Shown here piece after piece: positions 40,226 through 42,778 of a stretch of 64,000 nt of DNA. Within the stretch, counting starts at the first letter, position 1; every line of letters starts with the position of its first letter. Both the position numbers and the translations under genes were made by a program. This DNA is from Thermofilum sp. (GTDB taxonomy: Archaea; Thermoproteota; Thermoprotei; Thermofilales; Thermofilaceae), in assembly GCA_038741495.1 (NCBI GenBank), contig JAVYKX010000002.1, forward strand, positions 384,541 through 448,540, read 5' to 3'. A model generated the notes under the pieces. It searched no databases. It saw only the letters and a list, made by a program, of their open reading frames with translations, and had not been told where the DNA came from.

Positions 40226-40567
40226 TTACTCCTTGGCTAGCAGGCGGCTGAGGAGAACTACTACATCTACGTTTTCCGGGCTGATGACGCCCTCCGCGAC
40301 GACGTGCCTGCCTTCAGTGCGGACCACGATGAGCGACCCGCTATTCTCCTTCTGGAGGAGCACCCACTCCTCGCCTGCATCAAGGAAGCTGGAGACGGAT
40401 ACTGCCACGCTCTGCATCGCTCTGCCATCACTCTCGGTGGGATGGGCGAAGACGATGTCCCACTGCTCGCTGAAAACCGCCACTCTCTCTACTCCAAGGC
40501 TAGCCAACGCTTTCACCAGGCTCTGCCTGTCCAAATCTTCTATTTCCACGTAGGGTTTGCTCGCCAC
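40226..40567 (-). CDS. Small roadblock-like hypothetical protein
   Basis: A 113-residue soluble protein that I do not firmly recognise. An alternating beta-alpha pattern (RVAVFSEQWDIVFAHP, SVAVSVSSFLDA, WVLLQKENSGSLIVVRTEG, VDVVVLLSRLLAKE) resembles a roadblock/LC7 or longin-like fold. Such proteins often regulate small GTPases, but no GTPase is adjacent. The start is GTG 40567 with ggtaggga upstream, and a TATA-like actatattgt lies further upstream near 40618. It is divergent from the Glu/Trp microprotein gene. Confidence 0.5.
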   Translation of the reverse strand: MASKPYVEIEDLDRQSLVKALASLGVERVAVFSEQWDIVFAHPTESDGRAMQSVAVSVSSFLDAGEEWVLLQKENSGSLIVVRTEGRHVVAEGVISPENVDVVVLLSRLLAKE

Positions 40568-40660: not shown

Positions 40661-40671
40661 GTTTTATAACC
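40661..40671 (+). promoter_or_regulatory. TATA box of Glu/Trp microprotein
   Basis: gttttataacc with TTTATAA centred near 40666 gives an expected start near 40692, about 7 nt before the ATG at 40699. Confidence 0.55.
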
Positions 40672-40698: not shown

Positions 40699-40863
40699 AT
40701 GAAACTAAGAGCCCTACTTAGAGACGAAGAAGAGGAGTGGGAGGAAGAGGAGGAAGAGTGGGAAGAGGAGGAAGAAGAAGAGGAGTGGGGCGAATTCGGA
40801 GAAGAGGAGTGGGAAGAAGAAGAAGAGGAAGAGTGGGAGGAAGAAGAGGAGGAAGAGTTCTAA
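40699..40863 (+). CDS. Glu/Trp-rich acidic microprotein
   Basis: A 54-residue protein. The start MKLRALLRD is followed by blocks of 4-8 glutamates separated by single tryptophans at W14, W21, W30, W38 and W46 (spacing 7, 9, 8, 8), ending in EF. Thirty-six of 54 residues are Glu and only three basic residues occur, all near the N-terminus. GAA and GAG are used about equally, so the tract is not a pure DNA repeat. I do not know any family. It has a TATA box about 33 nt upstream, a near-leaderless ATG and a palindromic hairpin plus T-run after the stop, all of which support expression. Possible roles are DNA mimic, chaperone or ion-binding peptide (speculation). Confidence 0.7.
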   Translation: MKLRALLRDEEEEWEEEEEEWEEEEEEEEWGEFGEEEWEEEEEEEWEEEEEEEF

Positions 40864-41414
40864 AGCCGAGCTCGGCTTTTTCCGCGATTCGCTTTCCTCC
40901 TCTGCTTGGTCTTTCTCTTTGCGTGAAAGAATGCGACGAGAGCCAGCACTACCGCTGCTAATGCCGCTACAGCCAGGTGAGTAAGTTGCAGCCCGGAGCT
41001 CTCCTCAGCCTGTGCGTAGTAAACCGCTACATGTAGAAGTACTGGGTCGTGGTTGTCCGCAAAGGCCGTGATTATGAGCGTAGCGTTACCTTGACCGCAG
41101 CTTCTCAAGAAGACTAGTTGCCTAAGGCTGCTCCTAGCTGGGAGGTCTCCCAGCCTGATACTCATGTTTCTCCGCCAAGCTAGCCCGTCTATCGAGACTT
41201 CCAAACAGCCCGCGGCAGCGAGCTGGAGAAAAGTGTTCAAGGCGGCTCCGCTGCCTCCGTTGGAGATGGTGATCGTTAGCGCTACTACATCGCCTACACG
41301 CGCCTTCACTTCGCTCGGGTGGGAGGTGAGGAGTACCGCTGGAAAATCTTCCTGAGCCAGCGCGGGCAGCGCGACCAGTAGAAGAAGAACCGCTATGGTT
41401 TCTCGAGAGCGCAT
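40860..41414 (-). CDS. Secreted CARDB-like membrane-anchored protein
   Basis: A 184-residue protein with an N-terminal signal peptide (MRSRETIAVLLLLVALPALAQ). An extracellular Ig-like domain resembling CARDB follows (VKARVGDVVALTITISNGGSGAALNTFLQL, CLEVSIDGLAWRRNMSIRLGDLP, with two Cys). It then has a C-terminal membrane helix (LTHLAVAALAAVVLALVAFFHA) and a very basic cytoplasmic tail (KRKTKQRRKANRGKSRARL). I chose ATG 41414, since the longer frame reads through the upstream gene. It overlaps that gene by 22 nt. The stop overlaps that of the convergent microprotein. Confidence 0.65.
   Translation of the reverse strand: MRSRETIAVLLLLVALPALAQEDFPAVLLTSHPSEVKARVGDVVALTITISNGGSGAALNTFLQLAAAGCLEVSIDGLAWRRNMSIRLGDLPARSSLRQLVFLRSCGQGNATLIITAFADNHDPVLLHVAVYYAQAEESSGLQLTHLAVAALAAVVLALVAFFHAKRKTKQRRKANRGKSRARL
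40862..40881 (+). terminator. Palindromic hairpin terminator
   Basis: AAAGCCGA-GC-TCGGCTTT is a perfect palindrome followed by further T residues (about 40874-40881). It begins at the stop of the Glu/Trp gene. For the converging gene it lies in the last codons, so it may end transcription of the microprotein mRNA. Confidence 0.5.
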
Positions 41415-41866
41415 GTCAGGATCAATTTCTCTCCTCCCCATAAACTTTGCATCAAGCTGGAGGGAGTGCACACCTCGCCCCTGCAGATTCTGAGCTCCCA
41501 ATTCCCTCCTACGCCGAAAGCCGGCACGGAGACAACTCTAATTGTGCTTCCGTTACCCTCCACCTCCAGGGCTGTGCAGCTAGATAAGGGGAGGAGCGCA
41601 GGAGAACCCGCATAAGTGTAAACTCTCCCACAGCTGAGGGTCATGTTCTCGCATGCGAGGAGAACGTCAGTGCTAACTAAGACGCTGCTGCCCGTAAGGG
41701 CTTTCTCTACGTTGTTGACGTCCGTTTTCACAGCAGCTAGCTTTTCCTTCACCTCGAGAAGCTCCACCTGAATTTTCACAAGCTCTAAGTAGACAGCGAG
41801 CAGAGTGATTGCCAGGATAAGAGATATGGAGATCGCCGCAACAAGTAAGATTTTTTCCCAATGCAT
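41393..41866 (-). CDS. Membrane-anchored exported protein of unknown function
   Basis: A 157-residue type II-like membrane protein. A helix near the start (ILLVAAISISLILAITLLAVYL) is followed by a short coiled coil (ELVKIQVELLEVKEKLAAVKTDVNNVEKAL) and an extracellular domain with five cysteines (CENMTLSC, CTALEV, CRGEVC, C). I set the start at ATG 41866; the frame to 41920 crosses the TATA box (aaaaaattaattttt), which lies about 27 nt from 41866. It is co-transcribed with the next gene (22-nt overlap), so the two may form a surface complex. Confidence 0.6.
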   Translation of the reverse strand: MHWEKILLVAAISISLILAITLLAVYLELVKIQVELLEVKEKLAAVKTDVNNVEKALTGSSVLVSTDVLLACENMTLSCGRVYTYAGSPALLPLSSCTALEVEGNGSTIRVVSVPAFGVGGNWELRICRGEVCTPSSLMQSLWGGEKLILTCALEKP

Positions 41867-42016
41867 CCGCCAGCTTCCCCCAAATCTCCTAAAAATTAAT
41901 TTTTTCCAAGAGTCCCTCACTGACGCGTTGGCCGCCTGCTCCCTAGGCTCTAGCCCCTTAGGCTCTCCCGCTCAGCTACCGCTGGCTTTAAAGGCAGCTC
42001 GCTCGATAGGGCACGT

Positions 42017-42778
42017 ATGAGCGCAATCGCTCTTCAGTACCTGATAGGTATCGTGTTGATGGTGATGTTTGCGTTCATCAGCGCGATGTTTCCCGAGCAG
42101 ACAGGCCTCTTCTTCATTCTCTACTTCGCGGTGTTCATGGGGATTCTCTTCCTGGTGACTGGCCGGCAGGCTAGAGGGATTCTGAGAGATATCGACTACG
42201 TTAGCAAGGGTGCTCTCGTGTACGAGGCTCCTCGCGATGAGGTTCTCAAACTTCGCGAGCGCGATTTCCAGTACACGCGGCCAGAGCTCTCCGCCCAGAT
42301 GAAGTACGCTATGCTTCCTTTCCTTTCCATAGTTCTCTTCCTGGTGGTCTACTCGGTTCCCCAGACTCGCGAACTGTTCATGGGTATCGGCTCTTCGCTA
42401 ACTCGCGACGAGCGGCTCGCCAGCTTCTTCTCTTTCCTTGCGCTATACGGCTTCTTCTACGCAGCTTCTACTCTCATAGGCTTGTACGCGCGGCGAGCCC
42501 AAGCGCGGGTTGGGACACTCTCCATAGCCACAACTTACAAGATCACTTCCGCGGGGCTGATAGTGGACGAAAGGCTTCCCGTGAAGTTCCCGATAGAGGG
42601 GCGCGTTGTCGTGAACACTAGGCGCAAGTTCGTGGAGATAGAGATGGAGCAGAGCGTGATGGGGTCAAAGGTGAAGCAGAGGCTGCGTCTGTACCACCCC
42701 GAGCCCTCGAAGCTGGCTGCGCTCCTGAAGACTCGCGGAGGAACAGCAGAGGGGACAGCAGGCACCGCCTCCCCCTAA
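42017..42778 (+). CDS. Archaeal membrane protein, DUF2208-like
   Basis: A 253-residue membrane protein with four predicted helices: two at the N-terminus (LIGIVLMVMFAFISAMF, FILYFAVFMGILFLV) and two in the middle (MLPFLSIVLFLVVYSV, FFSFLALYGFFYAASTLIGLY). A cytoplasmic beta-rich C-terminal domain follows (TYKITSAGLIVDERLPVKF, RKFVEIEMEQS). It reminds me of the crenarchaeal DUF2208 group but I cannot verify it. An upstream GC-rich region precedes the ATG; a Gly/Thr-rich tail ends the protein. Confidence 0.6.
   Translation: MSAIALQYLIGIVLMVMFAFISAMFPEQTGLFFILYFAVFMGILFLVTGRQARGILRDIDYVSKGALVYEAPRDEVLKLRERDFQYTRPELSAQMKYAMLPFLSIVLFLVVYSVPQTRELFMGIGSSLTRDERLASFFSFLALYGFFYAASTLIGLYARRAQARVGTLSIATTYKITSAGLIVDERLPVKFPIEGRVVVNTRRKFVEIEMEQSVMGSKVKQRLRLYHPEPSKLAALLKTRGGTAEGTAGTASP

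Follow-up and report, generated by a model that had tools for sequence, protein, structure and literature searches.

DSS1/Sem1 (Rpn15) is a small, acidic, disordered protein with conserved Trp/Phe anchors that serves several complexes. The tail of the ribosomal P-stalk is acidic, ends in hydrophobic residues and binds translation factors, and DEF/Y-type motifs of histone chaperones place aromatic anchors within an acidic run. The NTA motif of eIF3j/HCR1 is one portion of a protein that is far larger and has other parts. The N-terminal half of eIF3j/HCR1 is indispensable; a Trp of its acidic domain docks in a hydrophobic pocket, and the factor co-operates with eIF1A (PMC2824034). HCR1 is found in complexes that contain ABCE1/RLI1, and additional RLI1 suppresses the effect of losing HCR1 (PMC3836723); a further paper cites HCR1 as a helper of ABCE1 in recycling (PMC7196836). 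The archaeal initiation factors described are aIF1, aIF1A, aIF2 and aIF5B, with eIF3 not listed (PMC7531240). Ribosomes also pause on acidic leaders such as E. coli MgtL; pausing at acidic residues is relieved by EttA, an ABC-F protein (PMC11282234).

Here we describe an archaeal microprotein rich in Glu and Trp (the E/W microprotein), encoded in a 64-kb stretch of Thermofilum DNA (the window). In our reading, which we hold to be evenly balanced between right and wrong, it is the Thermofilaceae member of a phylum-wide family and a trans-acting acidic-aromatic cofactor of ribosome recycling/re-initiation. Compared by description, DSS1/Sem1 differs in its mixed Asp/Glu composition, its C-terminal helix, its place in the eukaryotic proteasome, BRCA2 and TREX-2 complexes and its lack of Glu-run/Trp repeats. 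The P-stalk tail, unlike the E/W microprotein, belongs to a structured ribosomal protein and has an Ala/Leu/Phe-rich tip without Trp repeats; DEF/Y-type motifs act on H2A-H2B, whereas no chromatin link was seen here. The eIF3j/HCR1 NTA motif, like the E/W microprotein, is an acidic segment anchored by Trp, a resemblance for which homology is not claimed. eIF3j/HCR1 is a partner of ABCE1/RLI1 and eIF1A (PMC2824034, PMC3836723, PMC7196836), whereas the E/W microprotein is connected with ABCE1 through gene linkage only. Full-length eIF3j/HCR1 has domains beyond its acidic N-terminus, whereas E/W members span 17–64 aa with no Pfam/NCBIfam match; moreover, the Trp of eIF3j/HCR1 finds its pocket in eIF3b, and the archaeal initiation factors listed in PMC7531240 do not include eIF3.

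The window gene and its surroundings

The window microprotein (Table 1) contains 36 Glu among its 54 residues (67%), with Trp at positions 14, 21, 30, 38 and 46 and Phe at the C-terminus; on recount, the length, coordinates, Glu content and Trp positions given by a first-pass annotation of this DNA were all exact. No other ORF of the 64-kb window reaches 26 acidic residues in 40; at the window Glu frequency of 8.0%, 36 Glu in 45 would arise by chance at ~1e-31 per site. The Trp residues had been called heptad-like, a description contradicted by their distances of 7, 9, 8 and 8 here and by the distances between hydrophobic residues across the family (mostly 1 to 9, 5 being most frequent, in 97 sequences); because spacing varies in this way, a heptad or coiled coil was rejected. 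AlphaFold2 returned a single long helix (pLDDT 89), a result commonly obtained for polyglutamate and not counted as evidence.

Table 1. Features of the microprotein locus (window coordinates)
Feature	Position	Strand	Basis or remark
E/W microprotein gene, 54 aa, MKLRALLRDEEEEWEEEEEEWEEEEEEEEWGEFGEEEWEEEEEEEWEEEEEEEF, stop TAA	40699..40863	+	ORF translation; relatives in genus and phylum
TATA box TTTATAA, 36 nt upstream of ATG	40663..40669	+	read directly; similar distance in 13/14 Thermofilaceae
AAAGCCGAGCTCGGCTTTTTCC, short palindrome then T-run, probable transcription end	40862..40886	+	not conserved as hairpin
Divergent neighbour, 113 aa, Roadblock/LC7-like fold	40226..40567	-	linked gene in the window's family only
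Convergent neighbour, predicted secreted/membrane protein; stop codon overlaps microprotein stop	40860..41441	-	

Of 14 Thermofilaceae promoters examined, 13 have an AT-rich 8-mer containing TA that begins 35–44 nt ahead of the ATG, whatever the flanking genes, and in most of these 13 genomes it is the only such element in the 70 nt upstream; the 14th region is too AT-rich for judging. This placement supports an own, nearly leaderless promoter for the window gene, in keeping with the TATA box and short leader annotated at first pass. A sigma-70 promoter scan is irrelevant to archaea. The palindromic terminator proposed at the same time stands in part: the T-run is present in the window and follows the stop in several relatives, whereas the palindrome AAAGCCGAGCTCGGCTTT folds no better than its shuffles (z = -0.68) and is absent in all six relatives with downstream sequence compared.

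Downstream of the E/W gene lie two convergent genes, and the next plus-strand gene starts at 42017. The two (40860-41441 and 41393-41920, both on the minus strand) form a predicted secreted/membrane pair without confident Pfam match. The genus conserves this pair; in G003, a genome that looks like Thermofilum pendens, the E/W gene has moved and has a similar gene (L117 5631-6290) nearby. The adjoining convergent gene is not thought to be part of the microprotein's system.

For the 113-aa divergent neighbour, the AlphaFold2 model (pLDDT 79.5) has its best PDB matches among Ragulator, MglB and Asgard Roadblock structures (probability 1.00) and shows the predicted alpha-beta-beta-alpha-beta-beta-beta-alpha fold of Roadblock/LC7; a search against Pfam gave no Robl_LC7 match. 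In the searched class, this family (the window copy, L010-L016 and L023) occupies three genera of the window's family, and a further match in another family of the order (G017) is weak (E = 0.006) and carries internal stop codons. The microprotein gene adjoins the 113-aa gene in all firm cases but one, with arrangements that differ among genera. Inspection of the flanks of 113-aa homologues reached two genomes of a second genus (L015, L016), in which the acidic ORF adjoins the 113-aa gene and the remaining neighbourhood differs, and an AT-rich member of a third genus (L023), in which the acidic ORF is co-directional with the 113-aa gene, not divergent, and the same E/W-type pattern is encoded by GAT and GAA codons.

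A protein-coding family across the phylum

Ordinary protein and profile searches recovered few same-genus relatives, with conserved gene order; none of three different protein/alignment searches reached more than five genomes, and the window's own copy was missed by two. Profile and BLAST-style searches miss the gene because of its composition, and such misses reflect low complexity and are not to be read as absence. Since the failures resembled a low-complexity problem, we used a DNA pattern, GANGANGANGANTKSGANGANGAN, encoding [D/E]4-[W/F/L/C]-[D/E]3, with the reversed pattern as control. Four same-genus relatives were found by profile search or pattern, in addition to G003. The pattern matched 21 of the 27 genomes of the window's order (reversed control, 0), nearly every match being a short E/W protein, and all 15 Thermofilaceae-like genomes with an E/W locus by this pattern encode such a protein. 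Phylum-wide, it matched 232 of 397 sampled genomes, the reversed control matching 17 (18 matches). Among 63 genomes of many families read individually, there is essentially one microprotein locus per genome; the exceptions are two genomes with the pattern in unrelated proteins, one with it in a long ORF and one locus lying on two contig ends. The window genome has a single pattern cluster. Identical or near-identical sequences in named records suggest that family f15 belongs to Bathyarchaeia and that f31 corresponds to Sulfolobaceae, f28 to Pyrodictiaceae, f16 to Desulfurococcaceae and f9 to Thermoproteaceae.

The lack of an orthologue with the Trp spacing in close relatives had been named in advance as evidence against the gene; relatives were found in the genus and throughout the phylum. 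No match above cut-off was obtained for the E/W microprotein in Pfam, NCBIfam or PDB, HMM searches being weak for low-complexity queries, and a search of open-licence papers returned nothing on this protein, so that the family is apparently unnamed. The TATA-like element, the relatives and the lack of Pfam, NCBIfam and PDB matches together support the earlier view of a real, independently transcribed gene without a named family.

The 97 unique sequences from 36 families are 17–64 aa long (median 31; start codons were assigned by a rule, so lengths may err by a few residues), with an acidic core of median 79% whose non-acidic residues are mostly W, then F, and which contains hardly any Lys or Arg. 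Runs of E are split by single or paired W/F, and the C-terminal residue is W in 62, F in 17 and Y in 2. The conserved trait is thus an acidic chain interrupted repeatedly by one or two aromatics and closed by a terminal aromatic, not a heptad. The window microprotein shares the acidic core with W/F, the C-terminal aromatic and the single locus. The case for orthology is built on conserved form, on a single copy per genome and on continuity inside the order; alignment scores play no part in it, and some lineages may have converged on this form.

Codon-level variation separates a conserved protein from a conserved stretch of DNA. In a Bathyarchaeia-type group of 18 sequences, mean diversity at codon positions 1, 2 and 3, computed only from codons outside the search motif, is 0.022, 0.022 and 0.290. 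The third position is therefore about thirteen times more variable than the first and second, and it is the protein, not the DNA, that is conserved: the gene is conserved and selected as a protein. In the window ORF, 18 GAA and 18 GAG codons follow one another at random (20 runs against 19.0 expected); the selection on the protein that had been argued from this mixed usage is supported by the third-position diversity. In two close relatives of the window species, the ORF differs by one synonymous and one non-synonymous change. The near-polypurine tract, with a loose 24-bp tandem period (71% matches), might suggest that the ORF is no gene but an artefact of a GA-rich microsatellite or a triplex-forming DNA element. 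We give this reading practically no credence: start and promoter are conserved along with the protein positions, and the AT-rich relative keeps the same pattern in other codons. The triplex element offered as an option at first pass is thus refuted by codon-level conservation.

Linkage to ABCE1 and other translation genes

For 20 of the 36 families, ABCE1/Rli1, the ribosome-recycling ATPase, is encoded on the strand of the microprotein gene and starts no more than 1.5 kb after it (binomial P ~2e-57 at family level, families treated as independent). Counted by genome, it is downstream on the same strand in 52 of 110 and anywhere in the examined flank in 60 of 110. The E/W ORF lies 42–58 bp upstream of ABCE1 in Sulfolobales, and in f16 ABCE1 is within 2.7 kb in 9/9 genomes, mostly divergent from the microprotein gene. 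A second, independent C-terminal pattern, EWEEEEW-stop, scanned across 84,980 bacterial and archaeal species, gave 106 stretches; among the 80 listed, all are archaeal and 66 are followed on their own strand by ABCE1, in most cases no more than 0.6 kb away. A reverse search took ABCE1 as its starting point in 29 genomes, of which 28 lack a strict pattern match, and found E/W variants directly upstream in f21, f30, f47 and f60 and no upstream E/W ORF in f17 and f52, large families that look like ammonia oxidisers. Because these two have ABCE1 without an upstream E/W ORF, the microprotein is not universally required.

Adjacency to ABCE1 is common in the family, not defining, and the window gene does not have it: the gene is at C2:425239 and ABCE1 of the same genome at C1:209018, beside THUMP-like and TFS-like genes. 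The E/W gene is away from ABCE1 in all 15 Thermofilaceae genomes, and ABCE1 is absent from the examined flank in the window's family and about 15 others, so that for these families the link is drawn through orthology.

The short acidic ORF upstream of ABCE1 invites comparison with MgtL-type leaders and EttA-sensitive N-termini, which are likewise short, acidic and, as in many genomes here, upstream of the regulated gene. Poly-acidic translation in cis would pause or destabilise ribosomes and thereby set ABCE1 expression, as in MgtL-mgtA and EttA. The direct upstream position in 20 of 36 families fits such a leader, as do ORFs of down to about 20 aa and the precedent that N-terminal acidic residues, MgtL included, pause ribosomes that an ABC-family protein rescues (PMC11282234). 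It is the main rival, yet we consider it improbable. The window gene has no co-directional follower, most f16 copies are divergent from ABCE1, and in 15 of 15 Thermofilaceae the gene stands away from ABCE1 under its own promoter with the protein kept; in contrast to MgtL-type leaders, neither the window gene nor the genes of several entire families precede the putative target. Pausing, moreover, needs neither Trp spacing nor a C-terminal aromatic, and the Trp/Phe pattern and aromatic C-terminus are conserved.

Families lacking an adjacent ABCE1 in several cases retain THUMP-like and Sua5-like neighbours (assigned by reading sequences), and other recurring neighbours are Roadblock-like, AbrB/PhoU-like, Spt4-like and TFS-like zinc ribbon genes. 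The recurrence of Spt4-like, TFS-like and AbrB-like genes makes a transcription-side role, together with RNA polymerase factors, possible. A TFS-like zinc ribbon lies between microprotein and ABCE1 in f2, f3, f5 and f60, the three genes standing in a row in f2, f3 and f5 of the window's order; Spt4, assigned by reading its sequence, is divergent from the microprotein in two f24 genomes; AbrB/PhoU-like and HTH genes flank it in g4, g5 and g7, and an AbrB/PhoU-like gene in f38. Such neighbours are limited to a few families each, whereas only ABCE1 is widespread, and we rate a transcription factor no higher than a cis-acting leader. The small TFS/RpoM-like zinc ribbon between microprotein and ABCE1 was seen at L029, L030, L031, L027, L272 and L275 (1-183), and it stays near ABCE1 in the window genome; its score is below the TFS equivalog cut-off, and it may therefore be a family of its own.

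In the host-associated nanoarchaeon Nanobsidianus stetteri (L192 4630-5135), an E/W ORF, MDWEDLKRKVEELKMMAPKESEDWDEEWEEDWDEGEEDWEEDWEEEEW, lies directly before aIF1A and after NMD3, in a gene run (operon) shared with MCM-like, aIF2beta and NMD3 genes; it may be the nanoarchaeon's own gene or one acquired from its host.

The composition, with acidic and aromatic residues as the conserved features, and the predominance of translation genes among the neighbours also suit a general polyanionic chaperone that shields basic RNA-binding or ribosomal proteins, much as acidic-aromatic segments shield histones, and that is not specific to ABCE1. We hold this unlikely, if slightly less so than a cis-acting leader: the recurrent link is to ABCE1 and not to ribosomal protein operons. 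A DNA mimic or antagonist of chromatin proteins shares with the microprotein its negative charge only; no chromatin gene was seen adjoining, the neighbour signal is translational, and we regard such a role as very improbable. The earlier suggestions of a DNA mimic, histone/Alba antagonist or metal buffer found no evidence, the gene context pointing to ABCE1 and translation.

A possible cofactor of ribosome recycling

We propose a cofactor of ABCE1 and the 30S subunit because the strongest neighbour is the ribosome-splitting ATPase and the others are mostly translation genes. The product must act in trans, since the gene is kept when moved, inverted or far from ABCE1; in the window lineage, the protein has been retained while its gene has left the ABCE1 neighbourhood. 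A basic, rRNA-facing surface, whether on ABCE1, on the 30S subunit or on an initiation factor such as aIF1A, may grip the polyglutamate chain, and hydrophobic pockets would receive both the periodic Trp/Phe side chains and the aromatic residue at the C-terminus. Such docking would tune how ABCE1 binds to, or is released from, the 30S post-splitting complex, in the manner proposed for the acidic Trp motif of eIF3j/HCR1 in eukaryotes. The partnership with ABCE1 is one that we infer from gene linkage.

More tentatively, and with somewhat less than even confidence, the family may represent an unrecognised translation factor of 17–64 residues, made almost only of Glu and Trp and distributed over most of the phylum's lineages. 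On the 30S subunit it would be a partner of ABCE1 and fill, in archaea, the role that the acidic Trp-bearing part of eIF3j has in eukaryotes. If so, it would be among the smallest conserved translation factors, with a composition unlike any other, and eIF3j and other acidic-aromatic helpers of ABCE1 may follow a functional model that predates eIF3. A single-locus protein tied to ABCE1 would also give an archaeal handle on the coupling of recycling to re-initiation. Profile and BLAST-style searches have overlooked the family, and the DNA pattern reveals its presence in most of the phylum.

Further acidic Trp-rich ORFs

Two Thermococcus-labelled MAGs (L210 43-195 and L217 2450-2656, both on the minus strand) contain a similar ORF that starts with MQPPKKKKVEEIEEEEFFE, ends in EEEEW and is not near ABCE1; on these two ORFs, the family may extend outside the phylum. 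On the small contig C1 of G003 (L043 805-2084), possibly a plasmid, two adjacent larger proteins carry acidic Trp-rich tails, EEDWEEEEEDWEGFCEE and EPIDWDEEDWEDEEY. On an archaeal contig (L187, around 5843), an ORF whose N-terminus resembles a CPEC zinc ribbon finishes with the EEEEW-stop tail and is possibly a fusion.
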